Assembly: GCF_018128925.1 (NCBI RefSeq) | Contig: NZ_CP067007.1 | Span: 310,001 to 374,000 of the forward strand | Direction of reading: 5' to 3' | DNA: 64,000 nt | From: Nitrosopumilus sp. K4 | Lineage (GTDB): Archaea; Thermoproteota; Nitrososphaeria; Nitrososphaerales; Nitrosopumilaceae | Shown here: one piece after another, positions 46,898 through 62,293 of the stretch | Layout of the letters: every line of letters begins with the position of its first letter | Numbering within the stretch: the stretch's first letter is position 1 | Made by a program: the position numbers and the translations under genes | The notes under the pieces: model-generated | Seen by the model: the letters and a program-made list of their open reading frames with translations, nothing else | Told to the model about the DNA's origin: nothing | Databases searched by the model: none

Positions 46898-47029
46898 CTA
46901 CGGTAGTTCTTCTTCTAAATCAGAGCAAGCCTTGTGCACCCATTGATCCTTTGAATTTTTGAGAATCTCTTTTCCAACCTTGATTGCCTCTCCGCATTCT
47001 ACACATTTTCCATTGAATCTTGCTTTCAT
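46898..47029 (-). CDS. Mini zinc-binding protein (43 residues)
   Basis: ATG at 47029 to TAG at 46898: GKCVECGEAIKVGKEIL, then WVHKACSDLEEE. The C-x2-C...H-x3-C pattern suits one zinc ion, like treble-clef knuckles. It lies upstream of the small secreted protein gene on the same strand. Unknown role. Confidence 0.55.
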   Translation of the reverse strand: MKARFNGKCVECGEAIKVGKEILKNSKDQWVHKACSDLEEELP

Positions 47030-47171
47030 TGATTAATTGATTTTTTAATGTTATTTTAAGTAGGGTTTTTTCTATTTTGATTTCAAAATTCTACATTCTG
47101 AACAAAAAATATGCAGTATTTATCAAAAATAATATGTCTATCCACTTTTGTGCTAGTTATAAAGAAAAGAT

Positions 47172-47789
47172 GTGATTGATTTGTTGAGTGAAGAGGATCT
47201 ATTTGGAAGAATTTTGAAGGTAAAAAACCTCAAAGAAAATTGCTTCAAATATCTTGAAGATGGCTCAAAGGATCTTCTCACACACAAAATACTCTTTGCT
47301 ATTGCTGATCTATCTTCTGAAAAAATGGGCCCCGTAAAACTTTCTGAAATCGCAAAAATTGCAACGGGCGAAAATGACAAATCAAAACAGGATCTGATTC
47401 GTCTGACCCTTGAAAAATCTCTTTTAAAATGCGGTTTGGTTGAGAAATTAAAATATGCTGCAAATGATGTACGGTATATTTTGACTGCATATAGATTTCA
47501 AAAGATTAAAGAAATTGACAGTTTTCGTGGAGAGAGCTCCGAGCCAATTGGAGAAATTTTTGAGTTGCCAAAATTAAACTGGCCTATTCCTGATGAATTT
47601 TATTTGCTTTTGGCAAAAAAGACAGGATGTGAAAAAACTCTAAAAAAAATAAATTCTGATTTTGATGATGAAAAAATCCCTCGAGGAAAATATGAGAGTT
47701 TAATTAGCGATTATACTAAAAATTTGAATCAAATCCAATCAAAACTTGATTCAAAATATTCTGGACTCGAAGAATTGGTGGTTGGATAG
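47172..47789 (+). CDS. Hypothetical protein with winged-helix-like N-terminus
   Basis: 205 residues from a GTG. The first 110 residues look helical with a possible winged helix (LTHKILFAIADLSSEKMGPVK, LTLEKSLLKCGLVEKL, DVRYILTAYRFQK). The second part ends in a coiled segment. Family not recognised. It is followed immediately by the gene for a membrane protein, probably in one operon. Confidence 0.6.
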   Translation: MIDLLSEEDLFGRILKVKNLKENCFKYLEDGSKDLLTHKILFAIADLSSEKMGPVKLSEIAKIATGENDKSKQDLIRLTLEKSLLKCGLVEKLKYAANDVRYILTAYRFQKIKEIDSFRGESSEPIGEIFELPKLNWPIPDEFYLLLAKKTGCEKTLKKINSDFDDEKIPRGKYESLISDYTKNLNQIQSKLDSKYSGLEELVVG

Positions 47790-47790
47790 T

Positions 47791-48882
47791 TTGAATCTTA
47801 AACTCTTTGTATTTTTGTTTATTTTCAGTTCTTTTCTATTTGGAACATCTTTTGATGATACTGCCTTTTCTCAAACATCTAATCTTTTTGTAATTTTTGA
47901 AGATGATGTTTCTGAATCTTATGAGGTACCTTTATCTTCAGATGGGAAGTATGTTCTGAACCAAAACCATTCATGGGTACGTGATGAATCAAGCAGATTT
48001 AATCTTGTTTCTTATTCTGTTGATGGAAAAGACTCTGTTTCTATAGACCGAACACCTCGTGGAGTAATTCATCTTGAAATCCCTGGTGGTGTTTCTCAAA
48101 TTGTTTTCTCTGCAGTGCCCCAATATCCTCTTGTGATATCTGGAACTGATGAATACTCTTTTTTGCCTACTTCACCAACAAATGACAATTGGTTTGATGC
48201 AGGTTCAGAAATATCTGTAACTGTTCCTACTACTATTCCTGTTGAAAAAAATAAAGTTAGACAAGAAATTACAGGATGGGCTCTTGATAAACATGATTTT
48301 AGGAATTTGCCTGAAAACGAATCCAATTTTTTTATCACTCCTCCAATAACAATGTCTCAACCCCATGTGATTGACTTTGTTTCCCAAACTCAGTACAAGC
48401 TAAATGTTGTCTCTGATATTGGGACAACTACTGGAAGTGGTTGGTATAAACAAGATGATGAGGTATCCATTAGTGCATCTGCTCCTATGGAAGGATTTAC
48501 AATGAATGTGTTGATTGGATGGGATGGCCCTGTTATAGAATCTGATGGAGATTCTGCTAAGGTGATAATTGACGGTCCTACAACGATCACTGCAAAATGG
48601 GAAAAGAACTCGAGTCTTGGAATTGTTTTAGTTGTAATTCCTGCAGTGATTGTTGCCGGAATTGTTGTGAAAAAATTCAAGAAACCAAAAAAATCTCCAT
48701 CAGAATCAGAACTTGCATATGTAACAAAACCTGAAATATCTGAAAAAAAATCTAACAACAAAAACTTTGAAAAAGAATTCTCTGAATATTTTTCAAAACA
48801 AGTCTTGGATCATCTTGAATCCTTACATAATTCAAAGTTGATTTCAGATTCAAAATATTCAAAAATTAAAAAACGTTTGTAA
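47791..48882 (+). CDS. Membrane-anchored surface protein with InlB-type repeat domain
   Basis: About 363 residues from the TTG at 47791, just past the previous stop; an upstream TTG at 47746 also reads. A signal peptide (LFVFLFIFSSFLFGTS) precedes beta-rich segments. One resembles the InlB B-repeat fold (KLNVVSDIGTTTGSGWYKQD, ending ITAKWEKN). A membrane helix (LGIVLVVIPAVIVAGIVV) precedes a basic cytoplasmic tail ending in a short SHOCT-like helix (LHNSKLISDSKYSKIKKRL). Function unknown. Confidence 0.65.
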   Translation: MNLKLFVFLFIFSSFLFGTSFDDTAFSQTSNLFVIFEDDVSESYEVPLSSDGKYVLNQNHSWVRDESSRFNLVSYSVDGKDSVSIDRTPRGVIHLEIPGGVSQIVFSAVPQYPLVISGTDEYSFLPTSPTNDNWFDAGSEISVTVPTTIPVEKNKVRQEITGWALDKHDFRNLPENESNFFITPPITMSQPHVIDFVSQTQYKLNVVSDIGTTTGSGWYKQDDEVSISASAPMEGFTMNVLIGWDGPVIESDGDSAKVIIDGPTTITAKWEKNSSLGIVLVVIPAVIVAGIVVKKFKKPKKSPSESELAYVTKPEISEKKSNNKNFEKEFSEYFSKQVLDHLESLHNSKLISDSKYSKIKKRL

Positions 48883-51798
48883 CTATTTCTTTTTGCCATT
48901 TCCTTTATCTGGGGTATCGCCGCCACCCTGACCTGGGGTATCGCCGCCACCCTGACCTGGGGTATCGCCGCCACCCTGACCTGGGGTATCGCCGCCACCC
49001 TGACCTGGGGTATCGCCGCCACCCTGACCTGGTTGTCCATCAGTACATCTTTGATGGGATGGATGCTCATCACAGAAACTCTGAAGTCTGTTGTTTATCT
49101 TAGCTGCAGCAGCCTCTCTGGCTTCCTGTGCTTTTTGGCGTGCATCTAGCTGTTTTTCTAGACTCTTAAGATATCCTGGGTTGACTGTTCTATCATAATC
49201 TGAGTTAACAGGATCATCTTCCCAATCATCATCATAATTGAAATCTATGCTTTCAAAAATTGCTGCAAGTCCTGGTGGGATTTTTCCTAATCCTACTCCC
49301 TGACCATTTTCAAATGCTTCTTCTGAAGGATTTTCTCCTGCAGCTCCAAATCCTGGAATCTCACTTGGTCCTCCACCATTGTTTACTGCTTCAGTATATC
49401 CAAATAACTCTGCAAGTCCTGGTGGGATTTTTCCTAATCCTACTCCCTGACCATTTTCAAATGCTTCTTCTGAAGGATTTTCTCCTGCAGCTCCAAATCC
49501 TGGAATCTCACTTGGTCCTCCACCATTACCACTGTTTCCTGGTGTCTCGTCACCTTGACCTGGTGGTGCATTACCACTGTTTCCTGGTGTCTCGTCACCT
49601 TGACCTGGTGGTGCATTACCACTGTTTCCTGGTGTCTCGTCACCTTGACCTGGTGGTGCATTACCACTGTTTCCTCTTGATTCTCTAATCTCTTTTGCAT
49701 ATTCACTATTGCCTTTGGTAATCTCTAATGCTGCATCCGTATCACCACTTTCTAGAACTTCTAATGCATTTTGTAATTCTCTGATTGCTTTTTGAGTTAA
49801 TCCTAGATTTTCTCTATTTTCTAACATTTGATTAATTTCAGCAATTGTGTTTTCAATGAATTCTTCTTCTTGTGGATTATCCTCGGAAATTTGTTCTTGC
49901 ATTTGCTGAATAAGTTCATCTTTAATTTGTTCAGCTGCTGCTAATTGATTTTTAGCATTTGGAATGTCACCTGCAGCCAATAATGCTTTTGCTTGATTAA
50001 CTGAATTTTGATATGGTGTAAAATCTAAATTAACATTGTTAGATGATGCCAAATTCTGAAGGTTTTCAACATCAAAATCACTTTCCACTATTTCATTTTG
50101 AATGTTAAAAATATCCTGAGCCAATAATTGCTTCATTATTCCTGGCGGAATTGACCCTACTCCTAGACCCTGTCCCTGGATATTCTCATTGTCTGCTGTA
50201 CTGTCAACTGCAGCCCCAAAACCTGGTGGCAGTTGGTCTAACACTAATTGTTCTGAATCTCCACCTGCTGTTTCTGTTGCATCCTCAAACAATGCCATTG
50301 CAACTAGTGCTGATTCTTCTGCTCCATCAACATCTCCTGAATTTAGAGCATCTATTGCCTTTTGATATTCTAATTCTGCCATTTCAAGCAACGTAGATGC
50401 TGTTGATGAGGAGTCGTCTCCTACTGCTTCATTTGCACTTTCTTGTGCCATATCTAGAATTGCTTGGATTGGATGGAGTTCCTCTGGATCTTCAGATGGT
50501 GCCTCTTGAGCAAAAGCTGAATTTACACTAATAATTAAAACCGTAAGGACAATGAGGCCGAAAAGGCTGTATTTCAATGCTGTATTTATGGTATATTTCG
50601 ATATAATTGACTGGTTCGAATGAGGCCTTATTGAGGTTCGAATGGACTGAACCTTGTAAATTATTGCCGCAGGAATGAAAATATACATTCCAATATTCAT
50701 CATAATTGCTACAACACCGTATCCAATCATATCTTGTTCAGAGTTAATCTCTACATGGTCTAGTATTGATAGTGAGAAAAGCATTGGTGTGATTGAAATT
50801 CTTACTGTCTCTTTGAAAATCGGATTTTGGCGCTCAAAATCTGCAATTATGGGTGAGAACGAATAGTAAATCTGGTTAAAACCGCTCATAAATGATGTGC
50901 CTGATTCTGTTGAAAGCACGGTACTGTCTCTTAACTCCCGTAATTGCTGGACTTGTGGCGCCATTTCAGTGCCAAATGTGGCTGTGGCAATAAGACACCC
51001 TCCACCTTCTGGTGTCTTTTCTGGGATTTTATTGAATATTTTGATTGTTCCTTTCTCATGAGGATCAATTCTTATCCATGAATGGGTAGAATTTTGAAAG
51101 AATTTTTGAAAATCTACTTTTTCCTCATTTAATGAAGCGTCTTGGATATCTAAGAACAGTGATGTTGGGATTATTCCTAGAATTACAGCCTTGTCTTTGA
51201 TATTGAATCTGATTTCGTTGCTATCTGCAGAAAGTTCCTCTATTTTTGCACCTGTGATAAACTCAATTAGGTATTCAGCATCGTTTTGTGATATTGAGAA
51301 TTCCTGGGATGTTACCTGCCTAATTGAATAACTGAGCACAATCTCGCCTGGAGGCAAAACAAATTCTCTCTCATTTACCTCCATTGGTATTGTATTGAGA
51401 GAAACAAGTTTTGAGAGTGGTGGTAATATGACCTTTGATTGCTCATCGCTATGATAATTTATCTTGAAAATACCTGATTTGTATGAAATGATATTTGCAT
51501 TATAGGTTAAATCCACTTTTGTCGCGCCTAATGATGCTATATTTAGCATGTCTTTGTCTTGAGTAGTTACAAGTAGTATGTTGTCTTCATCTAAAGCCAA
51601 TATGCCTGAAATCTGGTCAGAAATTAGATTTACATCCACTGATGATACAAATGGTTCTGGAAATAGCGTGTGTGCTACCTTTGCTTTTGCATCAGATGTA
51701 ACTGTGATTATGATGCCTTCTTGTTCTGGGATTTGAGCAATTGCAGAAATAGGGATTAATGTAACTGACAGTATGAGAAAGACCCATTTTGTTTTCAT
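48883..51798 (-). CDS. Giant repeat-rich CFI-box surface protein with internal second signal-like segment
   Basis: 971 residues. Residues 1-21 are a signal peptide, and about 22-260 a beta-rich domain. GGGCLIATATFGTEMAPQVQ (265-284) starts the archaeal CFI-box region, which ends in a membrane helix near 358-382. Then SLFGLIVLTVLIISVNSAFA-QE (411-432) looks like a second cleavable signal. It leads into helical, acidic modules and three repeat blocks: a GFGAA...GQGxGxGxIPPG unit (three copies), GNSGNAPPGQGDETP (x3) and PGQGGGDT (x5). It is possibly a fusion of two secreted proteins. It is second in the operon after 51808-52494. Confidence 0.75.
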   Translation of the reverse strand: MKTKWVFLILSVTLIPISAIAQIPEQEGIIITVTSDAKAKVAHTLFPEPFVSSVDVNLISDQISGILALDEDNILLVTTQDKDMLNIASLGATKVDLTYNANIISYKSGIFKINYHSDEQSKVILPPLSKLVSLNTIPMEVNEREFVLPPGEIVLSYSIRQVTSQEFSISQNDAEYLIEFITGAKIEELSADSNEIRFNIKDKAVILGIIPTSLFLDIQDASLNEEKVDFQKFFQNSTHSWIRIDPHEKGTIKIFNKIPEKTPEGGGCLIATATFGTEMAPQVQQLRELRDSTVLSTESGTSFMSGFNQIYYSFSPIIADFERQNPIFKETVRISITPMLFSLSILDHVEINSEQDMIGYGVVAIMMNIGMYIFIPAAIIYKVQSIRTSIRPHSNQSIISKYTINTALKYSLFGLIVLTVLIISVNSAFAQEAPSEDPEELHPIQAILDMAQESANEAVGDDSSSTASTLLEMAELEYQKAIDALNSGDVDGAEESALVAMALFEDATETAGGDSEQLVLDQLPPGFGAAVDSTADNENIQGQGLGVGSIPPGIMKQLLAQDIFNIQNEIVESDFDVENLQNLASSNNVNLDFTPYQNSVNQAKALLAAGDIPNAKNQLAAAEQIKDELIQQMQEQISEDNPQEEEFIENTIAEINQMLENRENLGLTQKAIRELQNALEVLESGDTDAALEITKGNSEYAKEIRESRGNSGNAPPGQGDETPGNSGNAPPGQGDETPGNSGNAPPGQGDETPGNSGNGGGPSEIPGFGAAGENPSEEAFENGQGVGLGKIPPGLAELFGYTEAVNNGGGPSEIPGFGAAGENPSEEAFENGQGVGLGKIPPGLAAIFESIDFNYDDDWEDDPVNSDYDRTVNPGYLKSLEKQLDARQKAQEAREAAAAKINNRLQSFCDEHPSHQRCTDGQPGQGGGDTPGQGGGDTPGQGGGDTPGQGGGDTPGQGGGDTPDKGNGKKK
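48913..49032 (+). repeat. 24-bp tandem repeat (5 units)
   Basis: Five units of GGTATCGCCGCCACC plus TGACCTGG, in frame inside the giant gene and encoding PGQGGGDT. The GC content is much higher than its surroundings, so it is prone to copy-number change. Confidence 0.9.
49265..49527 (+). repeat. 116-bp identical duplication (period 147 bp)
   Basis: 49265-49380 and 49412-49527 are identical. They encode the GGGPSEIPGFGAAGENPSEE-type unit with KIPPGL. A diverged third copy is at protein residues 526-551. The identity suggests a recent duplication. Confidence 0.9.
49525..49675 (+). repeat. 45-bp tandem repeat (3.4 units)
   Basis: Three exact units (49525, 49570, 49615) and a partial one encode GNSGNAPPGQGDETP in the giant gene. 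Confidence 0.9.
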
Positions 51799-51807
51799 GA
51801 TTTATGA

Positions 51808-52494
51808 CTATCTTTGAATTTTTGGACCGCCTTTCCCGCTAATGTCGACCCATTGCCCATCTTCATATCTTTGAAGCGTATTTGTCATTGAATTGTATTG
51901 CAAATCTCCCTCATTTGGTTCGATATCTGGTTTTTCAAACACTATTTCTTCATTTAGATTTTTTCCAAACCTGTCTAATGAAAGGGTAAATGATTGACAG
52001 AAAAATTTTGTAACTTCTCTAATCTCTATGTTATCTTTTCCTTCAATAAATTGAATTTTGCCCAGAGAATCCACCGCATGAACAAAATATTCGCCTAAAC
52101 TACACTTGTCATATTCTAATGTCTCAATTAATTTGCCATTTCCTGAATAGATGTCAATTGATATGTTGATTTGCTCTTTTTTTAATGGATTTTTATCATC
52201 TAGTGAATCTTTGATAAACTGGTAGAACTCCTTTTTGTCTAGACTGGGTACTGATTCTAAGAGAAAATTTCCCTCGCCTGATACAAATCCTATTCTTGAG
52301 AATGAATCGTAGGTTCGAATCTCATATTCGCCCTCTCTTTGCGTATGGACAATTATGGAATTGGCTGCATTGTCAGGGTCAAGTGTGATTCCTCCGTGTG
52401 CCTGTAGCATATCTGGATTGATTATCGAAATTCCTGAAAATAATGCTAAACTGGTAGTAACTATGGTTAATGTAAGTAAAACCCATGTTTTCAT
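51808..52494 (-). CDS. Secreted protein, first gene of the repeat-protein operon
   Basis: About 228 residues from the ATG at 52494. An upstream ORF extension to 52593 runs through the promoter and is rejected. The signal peptide is WVLLTLTIVTTSLALFSGIS. The body has beta-type segments (GGITLDPDNAANSIIVHTQRE) and ends RYEDGQWVDISGKGGP, a motif often seen in extracellular coat proteins. A TATA-like CTTTATAAGG lies about 25 nt before the ATG, so the mRNA is probably leaderless. It precedes the 971-residue gene by 9 nt. Confidence 0.7.
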   Translation of the reverse strand: MKTWVLLTLTIVTTSLALFSGISIINPDMLQAHGGITLDPDNAANSIIVHTQREGEYEIRTYDSFSRIGFVSGEGNFLLESVPSLDKKEFYQFIKDSLDDKNPLKKEQINISIDIYSGNGKLIETLEYDKCSLGEYFVHAVDSLGKIQFIEGKDNIEIREVTKFFCQSFTLSLDRFGKNLNEEIVFEKPDIEPNEGDLQYNSMTNTLQRYEDGQWVDISGKGGPKIQR

Positions 52495-52518
52495 ATCTCT
52501 GTTTTTTGCCACGGTTCC

Positions 52519-52526
52519 CTTATAAA
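52519..52526 (-). promoter_or_regulatory. TATA box of the secreted-protein operon
   Basis: TTTATAAG on the minus strand, about 26 nt upstream of the ATG at 52494, gives a leaderless transcript. The 23-bp palindrome lies about 40 bp further upstream. Confidence 0.6.
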
Positions 52527-52563
52527 GACTCAGAATTATTTTTTCATTCAGACACAAATGGGG

Positions 52564-52586
52564 GTAGTTCGATTCAATCGAACTAC
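52564..52586. promoter_or_regulatory. Perfect 23-bp palindrome, candidate TrmB operator
   Basis: GTAGTTCGATT-C-AATCGAACTAC: 11-bp arms around one base. It lies between the divergent promoters of the secreted-protein operon and of the TrmB-like regulator, upstream of both TATA boxes. The perfect dyad symmetry and position suit a dimeric regulator; binding is not shown. Confidence 0.6.
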
Positions 52587-52599
52587 TTTCCATTCAGGC

Positions 52600-52646
52600 T
52601 CGAAATCCTTGGTTATATTGAAAGTTACCTAACTATCCTATAGAAA
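52600..52646 (+). promoter_or_regulatory. Promoter P1 of the TrmB-like gene
   Basis: TCGAAAT, then TTGGTTATATTG (TATA) about 35 nt before the ATG, then ACCTAAC. Nearly the same sequence occurs before the mini-ORF at 53861 (P2). Confidence 0.6.
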
Positions 52647-53492
52647 ATGAATACAACACAAGAACTTACCCTGTTTGACAATGAATCTGAAGTTGAATTG
52701 TTCAAACATAAGATTACTCTGGAGAAAATAAAAAATGAATTAATCAATTTTGGCTTGACCTCAAACCAAAGTAAGGTGTTTATCTATCTTGGAAAGTACG
52801 GATCGAAGACGGCCTCAGAGATAGCAAAAGCACTCCAATTGCCACGAACTGAGACATATCATCTGGTAAACTCACTCCAAAACATGGGTCTTGTGACTGC
52901 AGAACTGTCACATCCTACAAAATACACTTCGTTGGAGATGAAAAAGGCAATTGCGACACTCGTAAAACAAGAACAGCAAAGAATTGAATATCTTGCTGGC
53001 AAAGAAGAGTCTTTATCTCAAATGTGGAATGAACTACCATTCTTTGTAGTTGAGACTGATGAGTCAAAATCTGAAAAAATGCAGTTATTGCATGGATTGG
53101 CAGCCATCACAAACAAAATCAAAGAGATGGTAGGATCCAGTACTGAAAACATCCGGGTATTTGGAAGCATGGCAGATGTGTTGCGTCTGTATCATTCAGA
53201 TGTCTTTGATTGGATTGATAATGCTCCAACTGAACTAAAAATGGTCATTTCTCCAATGACAAAAAAGCCTGAATTTGTTTCTGACCTGGATCAGGACAAG
53301 ATTCGTTCATTGGTATCTGGTTCGGACAAAAAGTGCTTTGTAATTAATGATTCAAAAGAGATACTCATCTTTATGAGAAATGCAAACCATCCAACAAGAC
53401 AGACCTTCGCATGGTGGTCTGACTCTGAAACCCTAGTCGAAATGATGAGTATGTTATTTGACTTGTCTTGGGAAAAAGGAGAGATGGTATAG
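52647..53492 (+). CDS. TrmB-like transcriptional regulator
   Basis: 281 residues. The helix-turn-helix (FGLTSNQSKVFIYLGKYGSK, then TASEIAKALQLPRTETYHLV) and the following wing (VTAELSHPTKYTSLEMKKAI) match archaeal TrmB/sugar-specific regulators. A coiled linker and an effector or oligomerisation domain follow (GSSTENIRVFGSMADVLRLY). No sugar-binding residues can be claimed. It is divergent from the secreted-protein operon and directly upstream of mini-ORFs at 53494 and 53657. It is likely the regulator of both sides. Confidence 0.85.
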   Translation: MNTTQELTLFDNESEVELFKHKITLEKIKNELINFGLTSNQSKVFIYLGKYGSKTASEIAKALQLPRTETYHLVNSLQNMGLVTAELSHPTKYTSLEMKKAIATLVKQEQQRIEYLAGKEESLSQMWNELPFFVVETDESKSEKMQLLHGLAAITNKIKEMVGSSTENIRVFGSMADVLRLYHSDVFDWIDNAPTELKMVISPMTKKPEFVSDLDQDKIRSLVSGSDKKCFVINDSKEILIFMRNANHPTRQTFAWWSDSETLVEMMSMLFDLSWEKGEMV

Positions 53493-53493
53493 T

Positions 53494-53664
53494 ATGAGCG
53501 TTATGGCAATACAGGCATTGCATAATGAAGTGGGACAAATTGCAAGACATTCGATTCATGAGGGTCGTGATCACCTAGATAACTTGGAGATTGAGCATTT
53601 GATAAAGATGACCGATGATGTCGTAATGAAGATCAAAAAACAATTGGGTGGTTACTGTGACTAA
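53494..53664 (+). CDS. Mini protein 1 of the TrmB locus (56 residues)
   Basis: The ATG at 53494 is 1 nt after the regulator stop. The C-terminal half, EIEHLIKMTDDVVMKIKKQ, shares its motif with the mini-ORFs at 53657 and 53861, and the protein ends GGYCD. It is predicted as an amphipathic helix. Tight spacing implies co-transcription and coupling with the regulator. Unknown function. Confidence 0.6.
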   Translation: MSVMAIQALHNEVGQIARHSIHEGRDHLDNLEIEHLIKMTDDVVMKIKKQLGGYCD

Positions 53665-53743
53665 GTCAGAACTTGATAATCTTCTTCAGATGACTGATGC
53701 AGTATTTGCAAAAATTAAACAATCTGCAAGTGAAAACTTCTAA
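53657..53743 (+). CDS. Mini protein 2 of the TrmB locus (28 residues)
   Basis: A GTG start overlaps the previous stop by 8 nt; a GTG at 53648 would add three residues. SELDNLLQMTDAVFAKIKQS repeats the motif of mini protein 1. It is very short, so support comes mainly from the shared motif. Confidence 0.45.
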   Translation: MTKSELDNLLQMTDAVFAKIKQSASENF

Positions 53744-53811
53744 ACCTTATATTCTCTGATTTTTCTTTTGATTTTTCATTTTATGTGATTCGAACCAATT
53801 CTTACACATAT

Positions 53812-53860
53812 TCGAAATACTTGGTTATATTGCAAGTAACCTAACAGATACTGTAGAAAG
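53812..53860 (+). promoter_or_regulatory. Promoter P2, near-copy of P1
   Basis: TTCGAAATACTTGGTTATAT followed by TGCAAGTAACCTAAC is almost identical to P1 (52600-52646), with the ATG at the same distance within 2 nt. A further TTCGAA lies 23 bp upstream, at 53790. A common regulator is likely. Confidence 0.6.
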
Positions 53861-53995
53861 ATGGGCATGGAAAACCAAACAACACATGAAATAATGACAA
53901 ATGAAGTTTTTGATCTCGAACTGTCAAATCTATTGCAAATAACAGATAATGTATTGATGAAAATCAAGGGTAGTGTTAGAGGGGGATGCTCTTGA
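53861..53995 (+). CDS. Mini protein 3 of the TrmB locus (44 residues)
   Basis: Read from the ATG at 53861; the ATG at 53867 is an alternative. The end ELSNLLQITDNVLMKIKGS is the third copy of the shared motif, and it closes RGGCS with a Cys near the tip as in mini protein 1. It is driven by P2. Unknown function. Confidence 0.6.
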   Translation: MGMENQTTHEIMTNEVFDLELSNLLQITDNVLMKIKGSVRGGCS

Positions 53996-54138
53996 AAACC
54001 TGTTTGGTCTGTGTAAAACCATTTGTGGTAGGTAAAAAAGACTGTTGCTCTGAGATTTGTTATTTTACTCACCTGCAACGCAAATTAGATCTTGCTTTTG
54101 CAAGAGATGACAGTCATACACGTGTGCTTACTACTTAG
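53986..54138 (+). CDS. Mini Cys-rich protein of the TrmB locus (50 residues)
   Basis: The ATG at 53986 overlaps mini protein 3 by 10 nt. CLVCVKPFVVGKKDCCSEIC gives a C-x2-C...CC-x3-C array fit for a metal site, followed by a basic His-containing tail (YFTHLQRKLDL). Coupled translation with mini protein 3 is likely. Unknown function. Confidence 0.5.
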   Translation: MLLKTCLVCVKPFVVGKKDCCSEICYFTHLQRKLDLAFARDDSHTRVLTT

Positions 54139-54161
54139 GTTGGATTCTTTCTTAATTTTTT

Positions 54162-54377
54162 TTATGATTTTGACAAAATTTCAAAAATTTTGTTTTTTTC
54201 ATACTTGTATTTATCGTGATTTCTGAGATATTCTTTGATGGCAACAGATACTGATTCTGTGTCTAATGACTCTCTGTTTTTCAGAATTGCCTTGAGCAAA
54301 TTTTCCTTTGATGATTCAAATTCAAACTTTGCCTGATTTAGATCCACGTAACTTTTTCTTTTTTTAGATTTTAACAA
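54162..54377 (-). CDS. Small charged helical protein
   Basis: 71 residues, Lys/Glu rich and helical (DLNQAKFEFESSKENLLKAI, AIKEYLRNHDKYKYEKNKIF). Family not recognised. It is convergent to the TrmB-locus mini-ORFs. Confidence 0.55.
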   Translation of the reverse strand: MLKSKKRKSYVDLNQAKFEFESSKENLLKAILKNRESLDTESVSVAIKEYLRNHDKYKYEKNKIFEILSKS

Positions 54378-54426
54378 TTACTATTGATCAAACACTGGAT
54401 TGAAATTTTTCAAATCAGACAAAAAT

Positions 54427-54828
54427 CTAGTATTTGTTTTGGGCGACAAGATTTACAATGTCAGTAGATGTGATAATTCCTACGACTTTTCCATTTTCTA
54501 CTACTACTAACTTTCTAATTTTTGATGCTGACATTGATGCTGCCGCATCAAACACTGATTCATCAGGAGAGATTGTTTTGAGAGGATATGATGCTACATT
54601 TTCTACTGGAGTATCTAGCAAAATTCTGTTTGCAGCAGTCAGTATGGCAAAATCTCTATCTGTGATTATACCTGCTGGCACTCCGTCTTTTTTTATTAGG
54701 ATTGCTCCCACTCCTTGTTCCATCATTTTTGCAATCTGAAACAACGTAGTTGTTGGATCCGCTGAAATGAGTTCTTTTGACATAATTTCCCGTACTGGCG
54801 TTTCAGATAATGTCTTTCCTAATCCCAC
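54427..54828 (-). CDS. CBS-domain pair protein
   Basis: 133 residues with two CBS motifs: PVREIMSKELISADPTTTLF with GAILIKKDGVPAGIITDRDF, and VENVASYPLKTISPDESVFD with LVVVENGKVVGIITSTDIV. CBS pairs bind adenosine nucleotides and act as energy sensors. The partner is unknown. It is close to the tRNA-Val on the same strand. Confidence 0.9.
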   Translation of the reverse strand: MGLGKTLSETPVREIMSKELISADPTTTLFQIAKMMEQGVGAILIKKDGVPAGIITDRDFAILTAANRILLDTPVENVASYPLKTISPDESVFDAAASMSASKIRKLVVVENGKVVGIITSTDIVNLVAQNKY

Positions 54829-54902
54829 AAAAAACCCTAATTTTTTTAATATTTAAGTTTGAGAATTCATCCAAGTGTGAATGTTATTTTTCAAAAATTT
54901 AG

Positions 54903-54995
54903 TGGACCGGATGGGATTTGAACCCACGACCTTTGCGGGAAAAATTCCTTACGCAGTGTGAGTGCGTCATCCAAACCAAACTAGACGACCGGTCC
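54903..54995 (-). tRNA. tRNA-Val (anticodon CAC) with an 18-nt non-canonical intron
   Basis: The minus strand has acceptor GGACCGG/CCGGTCC, anticodon stem ACGCA/TGCGT with loop CTCACAC (CAC) and T-arm GTGGG TTCAAAT CCCAT, with discriminator A. Between anticodon stem and T-arm are 23 nt instead of 5. TGCG pairs CGCA, with 3-nt bulges TAA and AAG, giving a bulge-helix-bulge. Splicing there leaves variable loop AGGTC, as in tRNA-Thr of this window. The D-arm holds a TTTGG duplication and its stem is weak. Confidence 0.85.
54932..54949 (-). other. Predicted tRNA-Val intron
   Basis: 18 nt, with an inner hairpin GGAA-TTT-TTCC closing on TGCG/CGCA. Cut sites in the two 3-nt bulges place the intron between positions 44 and 45, not at the common 37/38 site. 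Confidence 0.6.
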
Positions 54996-55047
54996 ATCAG
55001 ATTTACCATGCAAGAAGCTTTTTTGTCTTTAGTTTGTCAAAACACAT

Positions 55048-55185
55048 TTACTCAAATGCATGCTTCCACATTTTTGCCAATTTATTTTGGCATTCGTCAC
55101 AATTTTCTAGATGTTCATAGAACTTCTTTGTATTTTGCGCATACTGCTTTACCATCCCTTCCTGAATTTTGTCAAAATTAAACAT
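55048..55185 (-). CDS. Mini protein with HxxxCxxC motif (45 residues)
   Basis: ATG at 55185 to TAA at 55048. FYEHLENCDECQNKLAKM has H-x3-C-x2-C, the zinc pattern of ZAS anti-sigma-like proteins. It is divergent from ileS. Unknown role. Confidence 0.5.
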   Translation of the reverse strand: MFNFDKIQEGMVKQYAQNTKKFYEHLENCDECQNKLAKMWKHAFE

Positions 55186-55243
55186 GAACTCATTCAGTTA
55201 GTGTGATTTAATAGAATTTCCAAAACTTCAATTTAGCTTTATA

Positions 55244-58200
55244 ATGCCACATCCACACCAAATTTTGATGGAATTATCTTCCAAATTTGATGCAAAATCC
55301 ATTGAAAATCAGATAAGAGAATACACAAAATCAATTGATGTTGAAAGGCTGATCTTTGATTCAGACAAACCTGAAAAAATTATGTTTATTGAAGGACCTC
55401 CTACAATGAATGGTATTCCACATGCAGGTCATCTGAGAGGTAGAGTCATCAAAGACTTATGGTATAGATACAATACATTACAAGGAAAAAAAATTGTTTT
55501 TAATGGGGGGTGGGATACTCAAGGACTGCCAGTTGAACTGCAAGCTGAAAAAGAATTGGGAGTTACAGGTGGAAAATCTGAAGTTATTCAAAAAGTAGGA
55601 ATTGAAAAATTAGTTGCAGAATGCAAAAGTCTTGTAAAAAAATTCAATTCCAAATGGGTTGAAGTTGATAATTTACTTGGAATGTCATTTAATCATGAAA
55701 AAGCATACTGGACCTATAGGGATAGTTTCATTGAACGAGAGTGGCAAATTCTTAAAAAAGCCCATGAAAATGGAATCTTGGAAGAAGACTATACTGTCAT
55801 TGCGTATTGTCCTCACTGTCAAACATCTCTTAGTCATGCAGAAGTTAACCAAGGATATGAAGAAGTAAAAGATCCATCGTTATACTACAAAGTCAAATTA
55901 CAAGATGAGGATGCATATCTGATTGTTTGGACAACAATGCCTTTTACTTTGGTTACAGATGCAATGGTTGGACTCCAACCTGAAGAAGATTATGTTTATG
56001 CAAAAATTGAAAATGAAACCTGGGTTATTGGAAAAACAAGATTTGAAGAATTTTTGCAAGAATTAAAAATTGAAGATTACAAAATTGAAAAAACTGTAAA
56101 GGGGTCGGAATTTGAAGGCAAAAAATACATCCATCCTCTTTTAGATTTGATTCCTGGATTAGATGAGTGCTCTAAAGAAAAAAATTTCCATGTTGCAGTT
56201 TCAGAAGAATTTGTAGATGCCACTGCCGGTAGCGGATTGGTTCATCTATCTCCTGCAAATGGTGAAGATGACATTGGAATTGCAAATAAACGCAAAGTCA
56301 AAGTATTCAATCCCATTAATGATGAGGTCAAATTCACATCTCAGGCAGGAAAGTATGAAGGAATGTTTGTTCGAGATGCTGATAGGCCGATTGTTGAGGA
56401 CCTTAAAGAGCGAAATGCTTTGGTAAAAATTGGGAAAATCAAGCACAAATATCCCCTGTGTTGGAGGTCACACCATCCAATTGTTTGGCTTGCAAGAAAA
56501 GGATGGTTTTACAAACTGGATCGATTAGATGACAAGGCAATTAATGCTGCAGAAAGCGTAGAGTATTTTTTTGATCAACCAAAAAATAGATTCTTGGGAA
56601 TAATAAAAGAAAAACATCCTTGGTGTATTTCTCGTGAGAGATTTTGGGGCTGCCCATTGCCTGTTTGGATTTGTGACGATTGTGGAAAACAAAATTGGTT
56701 CTTTACTAGAAAAGACATTGTAGATAATGCAGTAGAATTACCTGATGGTCCTGATTTTGAGTTACATCGTCCTTGGATTGATAGGATTACAATAAAGTGC
56801 AAACATTGCCAAAGTACAAAAACAAAAAGAGAGGAATATGTTCTTGATACGTGGCACAACAGTGGTTCTGCCCCTTACTCTTCACTATCTGATGAAGAAT
56901 ATTCTAAAGAAATTCCAGCTCCGTTTTTTACAGAAGGAATTGATCAAACTAGGGGATGGGCATATACATTACTAATTGAAAATGTAATTTTAAACAACGG
57001 TCCAATTCCCCCTTACAAGTCATTTTTGTTTCAAGGACATGTGCTTGATGAAAAAGGTGGCAAGATGAGTAAAAGCCTTGGAAATGTAATTGATGGCGGA
57101 GAATTATTGGAGAAATACCCTGTTGACCTTGTAAGATTTTATTTTATTTGGAAGGCAAGTCCTATTGAACCGCTAAGCTTTAGCACTGATGAACTAATGT
57201 CAAGACCCTATCAGGTCATCAATACCTTGTTTAATTTGCATCTGTACTTTAAACAAAACAGTGAATACGATAATTTTGATAAAACAAAGTCCCTTGCATG
57301 GGCAAAAGAAAATTCCTTGCTGACATCACCTGATATTTGGTTATTGTCAAAACTTCAAAAATTAATCAGAAAAATCTCAGAAAGAAATAATGCGTGCAAA
57401 TTCCATGAAGCCGCAAAGGCAATTGATGACTATATAATAAATAATCTTAGCCAAATTTACATTCCTATTACTAGGGGGGAACTATGGGATGAGGATGAAT
57501 CCAAAAAGAATCGAAGACTGGCAATCTATGCAATTCTAAATGAAGTTCTAAAAACACTGGATATTTTGATTCATCCTTTGTGCCCATTTACCAGCGAGTA
57601 TCTATATTGTTCTGTCTTTGGTATGCAAAAAAGCATCCTTCTTGAAAAATGGCCCAAATATCAGGAATCCTTAGTAAATGAAGAAATTGAAGAATCATTT
57701 GACATTATGAAAGATGTAGTGTCTGTTTCTGCTGCTGCAAGAATGAAAGGGAAGTTGAAGAGAAGATGGCCATTAAATGAAGCACTCATCTGCGTTTCAA
57801 AAGGACAAAAAGAAAAACTCGAAACTTTGTCTGACTTGCTAATCTCACAACTAAATGTTGAAAAAGTTTCAATAACTGAAATTGAATCTGATTCGGGATT
57901 TGAACAATTACGAGAATTACAAAATAATGATTTGCCTGTTACTGCGGTTATTGAGTTGGAAAGAAAGAAAATTGGCCCTAAAGCAAAACAACACATGGGA
58001 GAACTTGTCCAAATTTTTTCAGAGACAGATCCTGAAGAAATTTTTGCAACCCTTCAAAAAGAATCAAAATTTGATTTTCAAATTGATGGAAAAACAATCT
58101 CGTTGGAACTTGAAGACTTTGTGATTGACTTTGATGCAAAAGAAGGATTTGCAGTTTCAAAAAGGGACAACTATGTTGTGTTTATTTCAACCACTAGGAA

Positions 58201-58465
58201 CAAAGAGATGATGGCAAGAGGACTAATCAAAGACGTTGCAAGACGATTACAAACACTGCGAAAAGAAAGAGGGTATAATCCAACAGATGTTTTAGGTGTT
58301 GCATCCATTCTTGATTTGGATGAAGAATCCCTTGAAATGCTAAAAGAAAAATCTCAAGACCTGGCATTTCTTGTCAGAGTAAAACAAGTAAACTTTGAGC
58401 AAACTTGCAAGGAATACAAAGACGATGATATTGATGGTCAGAAGATTAGAATTTCCGTAGAATAA
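55244..58465 (+). CDS. ileS: Isoleucyl-tRNA synthetase
   Basis: 1073 residues, class I. HIGH-type PHAGHLRGRVIKD is near residue 60, and the editing domain reads YLIVWTTMPFTLVTDA. AHHPIVW-like SHHPIVWLARKGWFYKLD, then FFTEGIDQTRGWAYTLL and KMSKSLGNV follow. The C-terminal ends with the archaeal anticodon-binding region. It charges tRNA-Ile. A second in-frame ATG eight codons downstream (MELSSKFD) fits other archaeal starts and may be used. Confidence 0.97.
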   Translation: MPHPHQILMELSSKFDAKSIENQIREYTKSIDVERLIFDSDKPEKIMFIEGPPTMNGIPHAGHLRGRVIKDLWYRYNTLQGKKIVFNGGWDTQGLPVELQAEKELGVTGGKSEVIQKVGIEKLVAECKSLVKKFNSKWVEVDNLLGMSFNHEKAYWTYRDSFIEREWQILKKAHENGILEEDYTVIAYCPHCQTSLSHAEVNQGYEEVKDPSLYYKVKLQDEDAYLIVWTTMPFTLVTDAMVGLQPEEDYVYAKIENETWVIGKTRFEEFLQELKIEDYKIEKTVKGSEFEGKKYIHPLLDLIPGLDECSKEKNFHVAVSEEFVDATAGSGLVHLSPANGEDDIGIANKRKVKVFNPINDEVKFTSQAGKYEGMFVRDADRPIVEDLKERNALVKIGKIKHKYPLCWRSHHPIVWLARKGWFYKLDRLDDKAINAAESVEYFFDQPKNRFLGIIKEKHPWCISRERFWGCPLPVWICDDCGKQNWFFTRKDIVDNAVELPDGPDFELHRPWIDRITIKCKHCQSTKTKREEYVLDTWHNSGSAPYSSLSDEEYSKEIPAPFFTEGIDQTRGWAYTLLIENVILNNGPIPPYKSFLFQGHVLDEKGGKMSKSLGNVIDGGELLEKYPVDLVRFYFIWKASPIEPLSFSTDELMSRPYQVINTLFNLHLYFKQNSEYDNFDKTKSLAWAKENSLLTSPDIWLLSKLQKLIRKISERNNACKFHEAAKAIDDYIINNLSQIYIPITRGELWDEDESKKNRRLAIYAILNEVLKTLDILIHPLCPFTSEYLYCSVFGMQKSILLEKWPKYQESLVNEEIEESFDIMKDVVSVSAAARMKGKLKRRWPLNEALICVSKGQKEKLETLSDLLISQLNVEKVSITEIESDSGFEQLRELQNNDLPVTAVIELERKKIGPKAKQHMGELVQIFSETDPEEIFATLQKESKFDFQIDGKTISLELEDFVIDFDAKEGFAVSKRDNYVVFISTTRNKEMMARGLIKDVARRLQTLRKERGYNPTDVLGVASILDLDEESLEMLKEKSQDLAFLVRVKQVNFEQTCKEYKDDDIDGQKIRISVE

Positions 58466-58531
58466 TTCAAAAACGAGTGCATTGCAATCTTACTTTTTAT
58501 TTATTCTTTTTTCAAATAAATTTTAAACACC

Positions 58532-58587
58532 TTTCCAGAGGAGAATGGCTAGGTCCCCAAACGCTATTTTCCCTACTCCTCTGGAAA
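58532..58587 (+). ncRNA. Structured RNA candidate with 12-bp closing stem
   Basis: TTTCCAGAGGAG and CTCCTCTGGAAA pair perfectly around a 32-nt loop, in the gap between ileS and the ferritin-like gene. A TTTTAAAC TATA-like element lies just upstream, about 10 nt before the stem. It may be a small RNA or a termination/processing hairpin of ileS. Confidence 0.4.
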
Positions 58588-58654
58588 ATTATTCTCATCC
58601 TATTATCATAAAATCAGAATAAGCTTTTTATGACAACCAAAAAGTTAGAGCATA

Positions 58655-59239
58655 ATGTCAGATTCTAAACCACATCATGTTGTAGGTGTAGAGTTTCTCA
58701 AGCAAAACGGCGTAGACGTTGATGAATTAATTGAAGAATTAAAAAAGAACGCCGCAGTCGAATTTGTGGCATATTATTACTTCACAAATCTCAGATCATT
58801 CTGTACAGGAATGGATGGAGAGGGAATCAAAGGAGTAATTGAAGATGCAAGGCTTGAGGATTTGAGTCACTTTGAATCATGCATTGACAGAATCTTCCAA
58901 CTTGGAGGAGAGTTTCCAAAAGATATTGTAGATTTTTGCAAATCTGCAGGTGCAGATTTCTTACAATCTGATAAGAGCACTACTCTAAATGAGATTTTAG
59001 AAAAATGTCTCAAAGCAGAACAAGGTGCTATCATCAATTGGAACAAAGTCTGCCAAATGACTCATGGAAAAGATCCTATGACATATGACATAGCTGCAAG
59101 TATTCTTGCAGAGGAAATTGAACATGAATCTTGGTTCTTAGAATTGCTTGACGGAAGACCATCAGGACATATGAGAAGAAGATATTCTGGTGAAAGACCA
59201 CATACAAGCAAACATTCTAGATCTCTAGATAGTCTCTAG
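58655..59239 (+). CDS. Ferritin-like (Dps-like) diiron protein
   Basis: 194 residues, four-helix bundle. Iron ligands are suggested by AVEFVAYYYF, DLSHFESCIDR, KAEQGAIINWNKVC and LAEEIEHESWFLE. The tail is basic (HMRRRYSGERP). DpsL-like proteins of archaea oxidise and store iron and protect DNA from peroxide. It has its own promoter; not in an operon. Confidence 0.85.
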   Translation: MSDSKPHHVVGVEFLKQNGVDVDELIEELKKNAAVEFVAYYYFTNLRSFCTGMDGEGIKGVIEDARLEDLSHFESCIDRIFQLGGEFPKDIVDFCKSAGADFLQSDKSTTLNEILEKCLKAEQGAIINWNKVCQMTHGKDPMTYDIAASILAEEIEHESWFLELLDGRPSGHMRRRYSGERPHTSKHSRSLDSL

Positions 59240-59333
59240 TTCTTTTCTTTCTTATTTTTTTGAGTCAAATTTCCTAATCTAAAATCAACAAATTAGCTAG
59301 CTTTTAGCTAAACTGGCATAATAAATAGAAAAA

Positions 59334-59678
59334 ATGCGTATTAGAATTATGGTAAAACAGATCAGCCTTGATTCGTGGCAGATTCAGCATTTGACTGATC
59401 TTCTAAAAAAGGGCTCAGATATTGTTACTCGAACTAATAGACCTATTGTGTTGTATAGGCAGACATTAGAAGAAGAAGAAGATTCGTATGAAGAAATTGT
59501 ATGCACTCTTACCCAAGGATATGTGATTGAACAACTAGTCACATCAGGAGGAGTCTTGGTTCCAAGTTTTCATCAGCAGATTGTTTTTTCAATTGAAGAT
59601 TTTCCTCAGGAATTATTGAGAAAAAGCCGTGATCGATTTTTGCAGATAATTGATTTTCTTGAAGAACAACTAAACTAA
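59334..59678 (+). CDS. Hypothetical protein
   Basis: 114 residues; the ATG at 59334 or, five codons later, at 59349 (MVKQISLD). QIQHLTDLLKKGSDIVTR, RPIVLYRQ and PSFHQQIVFSIEDFPQ suggest a compact alpha/beta protein. No known family. It lies 39 bp upstream of sucC on the same strand. Confidence 0.6.
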   Translation: MRIRIMVKQISLDSWQIQHLTDLLKKGSDIVTRTNRPIVLYRQTLEEEEDSYEEIVCTLTQGYVIEQLVTSGGVLVPSFHQQIVFSIEDFPQELLRKSRDRFLQIIDFLEEQLN

Positions 59679-59717
59679 CTCATAATTAATAAAGACCGTA
59701 ATTTTCATGATTTTTGC

Positions 59718-60824
59718 ATGCGATTATTAGAATTTCAGGCAAAAGAATTGTTTAGAGAATATGGTATTAATCTTCTTCCTAGCAAATCTTGTACTACTAT
59801 TGAAGAAGGACGTGAACGTGCAAAAGAATTAGGGTATCCATTTGTGATAAAAATTCAGGTTCCTGTGGGAGGACGAGGAAAAGCAGGAGGAATCCAGAAA
59901 TGTCAAAATGATGATGAATTTGAGTTAAAATTCCCTCAAGTTTTGGGGTTAACAATCAAAGGTGAAAAGGCAAGGGCCATTCTTCTTGAGAAAATGGCCG
60001 ATATCAAAAAAGAACTGTATCTTTCCTTATTTTTGAATCGTTCCAAAAGATGCTACACAATTATCGCATCTGCTGAAGGTGGAGTGGAAATAGAGTCAGT
60101 AAAAAACCAAATCATCAAAGAGGTTGGTTTAGGTGACGTATCTGATGAGATTGCCCAAGAAGTTGCAAAAGAAATGGGACTGGAAGGTAAAACTGCAGAT
60201 GGATTTGTTGATACCTTAAAAAAATTATCAAAACTTACAATTGAAAAAGAAGCCGAATTAGCTGAAATCAATCCACTTGCAATTATGCAAGATGATTCCA
60301 TTATGGCACTTGATGGAAAATTTGTTACTGATGATAATAGTAACTTTAGACATCCTGAGCTAGAAAAATATCAAGAAAAAACAGAGATTGAAGAAAGAGC
60401 AGAAAAAAGTGGATTCTCTTTAGTTGAATTAGATGGTGATATTGCAGTGGTTGGAAATGGTGCGGGACTTGTAATGTCAACACTTGATATGTTATCTGAC
60501 AATGGTGGAAAGCCTGCATGTTTTCTTGATGTTGGTGGCGGTGCTACAACAGAATCAGTTTATGAGGCATTGACATTGATCAGCAAAATGAATAGAGTAA
60601 AAGGAATTTTGGTAAACCTCTATGGAGGAATTGTAAAAACAACAGTGGTTGCAGAAGCGTTTCTAAAAGCATATGAAGACAATTTAATTGATCTTCCTGT
60701 ATTTTCAAGACTAAAAGGAACAGAATCAGACAAAGCAAAAGAAATGCTTCAAGGTTCAAGAACAAAGATTTTTGATTCAGTTGAAGAGGCAATTAATGCT
60801 GCAGTGTTGGGGGTAAAGAAATGA
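59718..60824 (+). CDS. sucC: Succinyl-CoA synthetase beta subunit
   Basis: 368 residues. An ATP-grasp domain (residues 1-230) with IQVPVGGRGKAGGIQ and AEINPLAI is followed by a CoA-ligase domain with GNGAGLVMSTLDM and LVNLYGGIVKTTVVAEAF. It interconverts succinate and succinyl-CoA with ATP or GTP. It overlaps sucD by 4 nt (ATGA). In thaumarchaea it works within the partial citrate cycle, next to the 3-hydroxypropionate/4-hydroxybutyrate carbon path. Confidence 0.95.
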   Translation: MRLLEFQAKELFREYGINLLPSKSCTTIEEGRERAKELGYPFVIKIQVPVGGRGKAGGIQKCQNDDEFELKFPQVLGLTIKGEKARAILLEKMADIKKELYLSLFLNRSKRCYTIIASAEGGVEIESVKNQIIKEVGLGDVSDEIAQEVAKEMGLEGKTADGFVDTLKKLSKLTIEKEAELAEINPLAIMQDDSIMALDGKFVTDDNSNFRHPELEKYQEKTEIEERAEKSGFSLVELDGDIAVVGNGAGLVMSTLDMLSDNGGKPACFLDVGGGATTESVYEALTLISKMNRVKGILVNLYGGIVKTTVVAEAFLKAYEDNLIDLPVFSRLKGTESDKAKEMLQGSRTKIFDSVEEAINAAVLGVKK

Positions 60825-61738
60825 TAGATATTTTTGATATTTTAAAGGGAAAACCTGGCGAATCTGATTATGAAAAGAAAGGTGTTGTTGTTCAGGGAAT
60901 TACTGGCGCATATGGTTCACTTCATGCAAGAAACATGATTTCATATGGAACCAATGTTGTAGCTGGAGTTACTCCTGGAAAGGGTGGTCAGAAGTTTGAA
61001 GACAAGGTTCCAATTTACAATACAATGCAAGAAGCAGTTGATGCAACAGGTGCAAAAATCTCGATTATTTTTGTTCCAGCAAAATTCTTCTTGGGTGCAG
61101 CAAAAGAAGCATTAGAGGCAGGCATTAAACTCCTTGTTGCAATTCCTGAACATGTTCCTGTAAGAGATACTATGGAGGTTTTGAATTTAGCAAATGAAAA
61201 AGGTGCAGTGATTATTGGTCCAAACACTCCTGGAATCATGATTCCTGAACTAATAAAAATTGGAATTATGCCCCCAACACCATTTAAAGCCGGAAAAATT
61301 GCTGTATTGTCAAAAAGCGGTACATTACTTTATGAGATTTCTGATGCATTGACGAATGCTGGATTTGGACAATCAATTACCATAGGAATTGGTGGTGATC
61401 CGATTAATGGAACAAGAATGATTGATGCATTTGATATGGTGAAAGACATTCCTGATTTAGAAGGAATGGTTGTTGTTGGAGAAATTGGTGGTGATTCTGA
61501 AGAAATATTAGCTCAGAGAATTATTGATAGTGGATTTAACAAACCTACTGTTGCATATATTGCTGGAAGGGCAGCACCTAAGGAAAAAAGAATGGGGCAT
61601 GCAGGTGCAATTGTGATGGGAACTTATGGTTCTGCTGAATCCAAAGTATCCATGTTCAACAAGGCCAACATTCCTGTTGCAAAAAGACCTGCTGAGGTAC
61701 CTGTACTACTAGCAGGAAAAATGGAAAAATCCGATTAG
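60821..61738 (+). CDS. sucD: Succinyl-CoA synthetase alpha subunit
   Basis: 305 residues. The Rossmann-type CoA-binding part has GITGAYGSLHARNMISYGT and PGKGGQKF, and IIGPNTPGIM follows. The active His is in AGRAAPKEKRMGHAGAIV. It pairs with the sucC product. The 4-nt overlap and order are classic. Confidence 0.95.
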   Translation: MIDIFDILKGKPGESDYEKKGVVVQGITGAYGSLHARNMISYGTNVVAGVTPGKGGQKFEDKVPIYNTMQEAVDATGAKISIIFVPAKFFLGAAKEALEAGIKLLVAIPEHVPVRDTMEVLNLANEKGAVIIGPNTPGIMIPELIKIGIMPPTPFKAGKIAVLSKSGTLLYEISDALTNAGFGQSITIGIGGDPINGTRMIDAFDMVKDIPDLEGMVVVGEIGGDSEEILAQRIIDSGFNKPTVAYIAGRAAPKEKRMGHAGAIVMGTYGSAESKVSMFNKANIPVAKRPAEVPVLLAGKMEKSD

Positions 61739-61770
61739 AATAAAAGAGAGAGATTTAGGAAGTTAGTCAA

Positions 61771-61938
61771 ATGCCAATCACAGACCCAGAAAAAAAACGA
61801 ATTGCTCAACATGCTAGGCTTGTTATGAGAATTTGCTTTAATTGTGGGTGCAGAAATGACATTGATGCAACAAGATGCAGAAAATGTAGAAATCCCTACT
61901 TGAGATTAAAGAACAGAAATCTGGGCGCTAAGAAATAG
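61771..61938 (+). CDS. rpl40e: Ribosomal protein L40e
   Basis: 55 residues: MPITDPEKKRIAQHARLV, then ICFNCGCRN and TRCRKCRNPYLRLKN. Four Cys form the zinc site and the end is basic. In eukaryotes it is fused to ubiquitin; here it stands alone. It lies 32 bp after sucD on the same strand. Confidence 0.93.
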   Translation: MPITDPEKKRIAQHARLVMRICFNCGCRNDIDATRCRKCRNPYLRLKNRNLGAKK

Positions 61939-61942
61939 CATT

Positions 61943-62191
61943 CTAATAATTCATCAATCTATGTCTGTATTCTGCTATTGCTGATTTTATCAAGGGTTTG
62001 AATTCTGAGATGAATTGCTTTACAGCACTTTCATTTTCTAATTCTTCTAAATCTAATTGCATGTCTTCTGGTAATTGTTCATTCATTTGATAAAGAACTT
62101 TTGCCGCTTCAATTGACTGTCCCAAGTTTAATGCGTATTCAAAAGCCAATTGCATTCTATCAATAACTGCATCAAATTCTTGTAATGACAT
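61943..62191 (-). CDS. Small helical hypothetical protein
   Basis: 82 residues, helical and acidic (FDAVIDRMQLAFEYALNLGQ, LDLEELENESAVKQFI) with a basic end (AEYRHRLMNY). Unknown family. Convergent with L40e and divergent from purD. Confidence 0.6.
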   Translation of the reverse strand: MSLQEFDAVIDRMQLAFEYALNLGQSIEAAKVLYQMNEQLPEDMQLDLEELENESAVKQFISEFKPLIKSAIAEYRHRLMNY

Positions 62192-62293
62192 GTTTGATTT
62201 TTTCCTAAAGAGTGTAAAAGGAGAGGGTTATGATGATATATTTTGAAACATACAATACTTTGGATTATATATTTGAAAAAACTGGTTTTCTTA

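Follow-up and report, generated by a model that had tools for sequence, protein, structure and literature searches.

The valine tRNA gene with anticodon CAC in Nitrosopumilus sp. K4 carries extra nucleotides between its anticodon and T arms. Are these nucleotides removed as an intron, or do they belong to the mature tRNA? We analyzed the gene in the window (the whole stretch of DNA studied, 64,000 nucleotides), in the host genome (G000, a single contig of 1,645,909 bases), and in relatives within and beyond the family. We put the probability that the insert is a non-canonical archaeal bulge-helix-bulge tRNA intron at about 0.96, judging from sequence comparison.

The tRNA-Val(CAC) Gene

ARAGORN calls a tRNA-Val with anticodon CAC at 54902-54995 on the minus strand, and the Rfam family RF00005 matches 54903-54995 of the same strand with 50 bits against a gathering score of 29 bits. 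The sequence shows no break in the acceptor, D, anticodon (ACGCA/TGCGT), or T stem. Positions 43 to 49 are separated by 23 nt as opposed to the usual 5, an excess of 18. The first-pass annotation had described a tRNA-Val that is 18 nt over length at position 44/45, and ARAGORN, Rfam, and the sequence bear this out. The inserted letters at 54932-54949 are AGGAATTTTTCCCGCAAA. The gene is divided as follows.

54903-54995, minus strand: tRNA-Val(CAC) gene, 93 nt, CCA not encoded (ARAGORN, Rfam RF00005, sequence)
54950-54995, minus strand: 5' exon, positions 1-44, 46 nt (limits set by the bulge-helix-bulge and by intronless relatives)
54958-54960, minus strand: anticodon CAC (ARAGORN and sequence)
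54932-54949, minus strand: predicted intron, 18 nt, between positions 44 and 45 (sequence, shuffle control, same site in 103 distinct sequences of relatives)
54903-54931, minus strand: 3' exon, positions 45-73, 29 nt (limits set by the bulge-helix-bulge and by intronless relatives)

The host genome has 42 tRNA matches to RF00005, and its valine genes are TAC, GAC, and CAC. The Rfam scores of Val-TAC and Val-GAC are 63.2 and 59.8 bits, and the lower score of Val-CAC is what might be expected of a pseudogene, a tRNA in decay that took up random letters. Against decay stand the intact exon stems, a pattern of the CAC exons that matches the host genome once, so that this is the sole Val-CAC copy found there, and the recurrence of the insert site, with compensatory change, in 144 of 250 genomes of the family. 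A pseudogene is scarcely credible on these grounds.

The D arm (TTTGGTTTGG) contains the letters of a TTTGG repeat, which had been taken for a duplication in the D-loop. These letters span G18G19 and the GG of the D stem at 22-23, and relatives differ at that place, for example with AGTTGGTTAGG or AGTGGCTAGG. By its letters the D-loop is an ordinary one with an extra T and a T for A at position 21, and the duplication was dropped. We know of no effect of this variant.

A Predicted Bulge-Helix-Bulge at the Insert

The insert and its surroundings can be read as a bulge-helix-bulge motif with these elements.

54952-54955, minus strand: 5' strand of the central helix, TGCG at positions 39-42, which also belongs to the anticodon stem (pairs with 54934-54937; its pair H1 covaries)
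54949-54951, minus strand: 5' bulge TAA, predicted cut TA^A (fixed-register reading of 103 sequences)
54945-54948, minus strand: 5' strand of the inner helix, GGAA (pairs with 54938-54941; compensatory changes in relatives)
54938-54941, minus strand: 3' strand of the inner helix, TTCC, with a 3-nt loop at 54942-54944 (comparison of relatives)
54934-54937, minus strand: 3' strand of the central helix, CGCA (comparison of relatives)
54931-54933, minus strand: 3' bulge AAG, predicted cut AA^G (fixed-register reading of 103 sequences)

From the outside in, the motif runs through AC/GT, the AA^G bulge, TGCG/CGCA, the TA^A bulge, GGAA/TTCC, and the 3-nt loop. The window gene has the 4-bp central helix, two 3-nt bulges on opposite strands, and the inner helix that characterize such a motif. 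The outer helix (AC/GT) is just 2 bp long, which puts the motif near the relaxed HBh' type. When the 18 letters were shuffled, a 4-bp central helix together with a 4-bp inner helix in that register appeared in 133 of 400,000 shuffles (0.03%). A bulge-helix-bulge with reversed strand order was also tried and did not fit; the 5' exon pairs with the 3' end of the intron.

Removal of the intron in silico gives a 75-nt product that folds as a cloverleaf with the variable loop AGGTC. Native intronless relatives have 5-nt variable loops that read AGGTC or GGGTC in genes read out singly and in the narrower intronless pattern, where the R was preset, and also TGGTC and others by a wider pattern. The bulge-helix-bulge of TGCG/CGCA, the inner hairpin, and the AGGTC product had all been proposed in the first-pass annotation, and they are supported both by this fit and by the comparative tests below.

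The pair TGCG/CGCA takes up the 3' strand of the anticodon stem, and the central helix and the cloverleaf are therefore mutually exclusive. Computed energies are -26.9 kcal/mol for the cloverleaf with a retained hairpin, and -25.3 and -23.4 kcal/mol for the bulge-helix-bulge without and with the outer helix. Such nearest-neighbor energies slightly favor the retained hairpin, and alone they do not predict splicing. In a second explanation, the 18 nt are a long variable arm that stays in a class II-like tRNA-Val. The GGAA/TTCC hairpin would then lie in the variable region, and the cloverleaf with this hairpin has the lowest energy of the four folds scored. As with the class II arm of Ser and Leu, there would be an extra hairpin between positions 44 and 48. 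Class II arms are given for Ser, Leu, and bacterial Tyr in the part of the source drawn on here (PMC4033280), which speaks against one in a tRNA-Val. The evidence from relatives bears on this arm more directly.

Covariation in Relatives

We compared 103 intron versions, which comprise 102 distinct strings out of 148 rows found with the intron pattern and one further sequence (L056). Identical rows were merged by eye, and two variants that differ in one T-loop base (one in G303, G405, and G407, the other in G167) were omitted. The search pattern preset GCGTA at positions 40-44, CG in the 3' strand of the central helix, and, in the 3' bulge, the A and the G. A single register was used to read all 103 rows. 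That these letters and the bulge length do not vary is thus no evidence. The 5' bulge, with its T and A preset and its third base free, is TAA in 87 and TAT in 16 of the 103 sequences. The 3' bulge, with its A and G preset, is AAG in 81, AGG in 14, ATG in 7, and ACG in 1.

The first central pair, H1, is the one that varies freely. It is T-A in 86 sequences, A-T in 9, G-T in 4, G-C in 2, T-G in 1, and A-C in 1. It is kept in 102 of 103, and the single A-C break occurs in G010 (L051). All four central pairs are kept in 102 of 103 sequences and at least three contiguous inner pairs in 103 of 103, in a register that is partly preset; H2 to H4 are not informative on covariation. The inner pairs I1 to I3 are G-C or A-T with one G-T, they are broken in 0 of 103 sequences, and they include compensatory changes. 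Observed pairing at H1, I1, I2, and I3 is 0.990, 1, 1, and 1, compared with permutation means of 0.735, 0.869, 0.891, and 0.849. At each of these pairs 0 of 2000 permutations reached the observed value, in a control that ignores relatedness and with few independent changes. By these alignments, the structure is maintained by compensatory change in relatives.

The length of the predicted intron ranges from 16 to 25 nt, with one of 48 nt (G016), next to exons that are near constant. Length that varies while exons stay constant is unlike a retained arm, and so is the covariation at H1 between the anticodon stem and the 3' portion of the insert.

Presence and Absence of the Insert

In 60 of 61 near genomes a nucleotide search found matches; many cover a whole tRNA-Val gene and many just one tRNA arm. 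In the tRNA-Val(CAC) genes of relatives the insert is variable or absent, the exons changing little. A covariance model (R1) built on the mature form matched in 299 of 300 genomes of the order. Among the matches listed for the host genome it found Val-TAC and Val-GAC and the intron form was absent, which makes R1 unfit to count introns. Sequence patterns were used instead.

Across 250 genomes of the same family, 144 match the intron-form pattern, 43 the intronless pattern, none both, and 63 neither. The neither-form group includes two genomes that do carry the intron (G016 with a longer gap and G024 with a masked end) and several that are intronless by the wider pattern, such as G008, G029, G202, and G261. 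By genus, the intron pattern is found in 20 of 22 and the intronless pattern in 2 of 22 (g8 and g19); the wider intronless pattern brings in members of g5 and g8. Another member of the family, G011, is intronless in Val-CAC. The gene was also scored at 72 named loci around isoleucyl-tRNA synthetase (IleRS), where 46 have the intron form, 5 are intronless (four of these named Nitrosopelagicus), and 21 have neither. Many of the relatives at the IleRS locus are named Nitrosarchaeum or Nitrosopumilus.

The flanks of the gene match on both sides in G386 and G410, which have the intron, and in G387 and G008, which have none. This provides two with/without pairs at the same locus, G386/G387 and G410/G008. 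In the intronless G011 the flank matches on one side. A tRNA of class II would keep its arm in orthologues; here the insert varies in length and is absent from 43 of the 250 family genomes and, at the same locus, from G387 and G008. Relatives that lack it have a 5-nt variable loop. Together with its pairing to the anticodon stem, these differences from a class II arm make a retained arm highly improbable.

The empty sites also bear on where the intron would be cut. In G410 the gene reads ...CTCACACTGCGTA[TGGATTTAAAATCCCGCAAG]GGTCAAGGGTTCAA and in G387 it reads ...CTCACACTGCGTAGGTCAAGGGTTCAA, so that the two tRNA genes differ by one D-loop base and by exactly the 20-nt intron. The standard cut in a bulge-helix-bulge falls after the second base of each bulge, as in TA^T/AG^G. 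In the window gene a cut one base off, at 43/44 (T^AA with A^AG), would yield an identical mature tRNA, and the window alone cannot decide between the two. The bulges of G410 are TAT and AGG, and the sequence of G387 is obtained only by TA^T with AG^G, which fixes the cuts. An intron at 43/44 is therefore very unlikely, and the intron is placed at 44/45.

History of the Locus

A tree of IleRS was built from 36 of 38 genomes; G010 and G013 were dropped because their IleRS is split, and G256 and G410 are partial. Support is 49-76 at nine of its inner nodes. The tree pairs G387 with G386 (support 92) and places G410 as the sister of G008/G029 (support 100). On this tree, with several nodes weak, a single gain in the ancestor of the family must be followed by five losses, and unordered parsimony needs six changes. 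The exons of G387 are closer to those of G410 than to those of its sister G386. Furthermore, within matching flanks the tRNA-Val gene, and it alone, has opposite orientations in G386/G387 and in G410/G008/G011 (L289-L292, L296). The exon likeness and the inversion make gene exchange or movement at the tRNA-Val locus possible.

Larger rearrangements were seen nearby. A 7.2-kb block with IleRS, at about 55036-62240 of the window, is inverted compared with the four relatives examined (L218, L219, L235, L271), and the 5' end of the tRNA-Val gene is some 40-50 bases away from one of its breakpoints. Among the 25 of 49 pairs listed, no inverted repeat was seen that connects both ends of the inverted block near the tRNA. 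A stretch of about 7.4 kb (window about 47029-54449) has no blastn match in L271, where its flanks are about 0.2 kb apart, and it includes a repeat-rich open reading frame of 971 aa (48883-51798, minus strand).

Outside the family, the intron pattern was found in 4 of 300 genomes of the order sample: G156, G165, and G180 (f10) and G134 (f8). By eye, the motif of G180 is weaker, as A-G would be one of its central pairs. G134 has an intronless gene as well, and its intron copy sits on a 5.8-kb contig; both forms and the short contig make contamination or transfer the likely source of that copy. Within f10, G162 lacks by eye the 16 nt that G156 of the same genus has at 44/45, and the anticodon arm of both appears to hold another insert, about 15 nt long.

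Predicted Splicing

In the proposed process, positions 39-42 of the transcript would exchange their partners in the anticodon stem for the CGCA that lies toward the intron's 3' end. In each 3-nt bulge the splicing endonuclease would cut between the second and third base, and a ligase, presumably of the RtcB type, would join 44 to 45. The anticodon stem would then re-form, giving an ordinary tRNA-Val with the variable loop AGGTC. The host genome has two EndA-family (PF01974) genes above the cut-off, with their domain matches at C1:454493-454744 and C1:1023635-1023886. Residues 6-180 of the 181 of one protein (L079) align with PDB 2cv8, and the triad Tyr, His, and Lys is kept. The other (L080), compared with 1a79, keeps Tyr and Lys and has Gly opposite the catalytic His. 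The catalytic triad was located in these alignments by eye. A complete triad in one protein and an incomplete one in the other are consistent with an (alpha-beta)2 EndA, the form stated for Thaumarchaeota in the portion of the source used (PMC4090602).

Other Interrupted tRNA Genes

Inserts were also observed in other tRNAs of this genome. An initiator-like tRNA-Met outside the window (L066, G000 C1:1368561-1368605) has 15 extra nucleotides in its D-loop, ACTATTTAGGGCTAG, which may form a central helix AGCC/GGCT. A pattern for this tRNA matched 14 of 61 family genomes, 10 with a 15-nt insert and 4 without any, and the genus g11 shows both states (G121 and G135). The gene at G000 C1:1151755-1151860 (L065) is by eye probably a tRNA-Gln(CTG) with inserts in the D arm and the anticodon loop. 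ARAGORN reports further introns in tRNAs for Met (40 nt), Tyr (49 nt), Leu-CAA (21 nt), and Ser-GGA (14 nt). None of tRNA-Trp, Glu-TTC, and Leu-TAA was read among the 42 RF00005 matches; these may be more heavily interrupted, or missed.

Relation to Known Archaeal tRNA Introns

The finding is real and ordinary in kind. Non-canonical introns of Thaumarchaeota are already published. A thaumarchaeal non-canonical intron model was trained for tRNAscan-SE 2.0, and the part of that article consulted puts the number of non-canonical introns in its thaumarchaeal genomes at 107 (PMC8450103). Those introns come from the same phylum and share the bulge-helix-bulge and the non-canonical position, so no difference in kind is apparent from that part; its main text, as far as it was covered, does not name an intron of Val-CAC at 44/45. 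The first-pass annotation was right in its main point. Its remark that such introns are rarely this short does not hold, because archaeal tRNA introns are given as 11-129 nt with medians mostly of 12-25 nt in the part of PMC4090602 used here, which makes 18 nt typical.

Non-canonical introns are also attributed to the Thermoproteales (Sugahara et al. 2008, as cited in parts of PMC4033280, PMC3218864, and PMC8450103). There, too, bulge-helix-bulge introns occur at scattered positions in archaea with an (alpha-beta)2 endonuclease, as these parts describe. Thermoproteales genes hold up to three introns, whereas tRNA-Val(CAC) here holds one, at a single site across much of the family. The related ammonia oxidizer Ca. 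Nitrosotalea devanaterra likewise has putative introns in various tRNAs, according to a part of its description (PMC4836417). No PMC paper among the matches listed names a Val-CAC intron in its title or the start of its abstract; supplements and GtRNAdb may well list it.

Implications

A tRNA finder that lacks archaeal intron models may mishandle this gene, and ARAGORN gave wrong anticodons for intron-bearing relatives (L055, L057, and L058). The clean with/without pairs at one conserved locus would be useful for learning how archaeal tRNA introns get lost. The family also shows an intron site that is preserved by its structure while letters and length drift. That position 44/45 of tRNA-Val(CAC) is a recurrent intron site is a tentative idea and rather doubtful. 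If true, it would point to repeated gain by transposition between tRNAs or, alternatively, to an intron precisely and repeatedly lost through recombination, either with another tRNA gene or with a copy of the spliced RNA.
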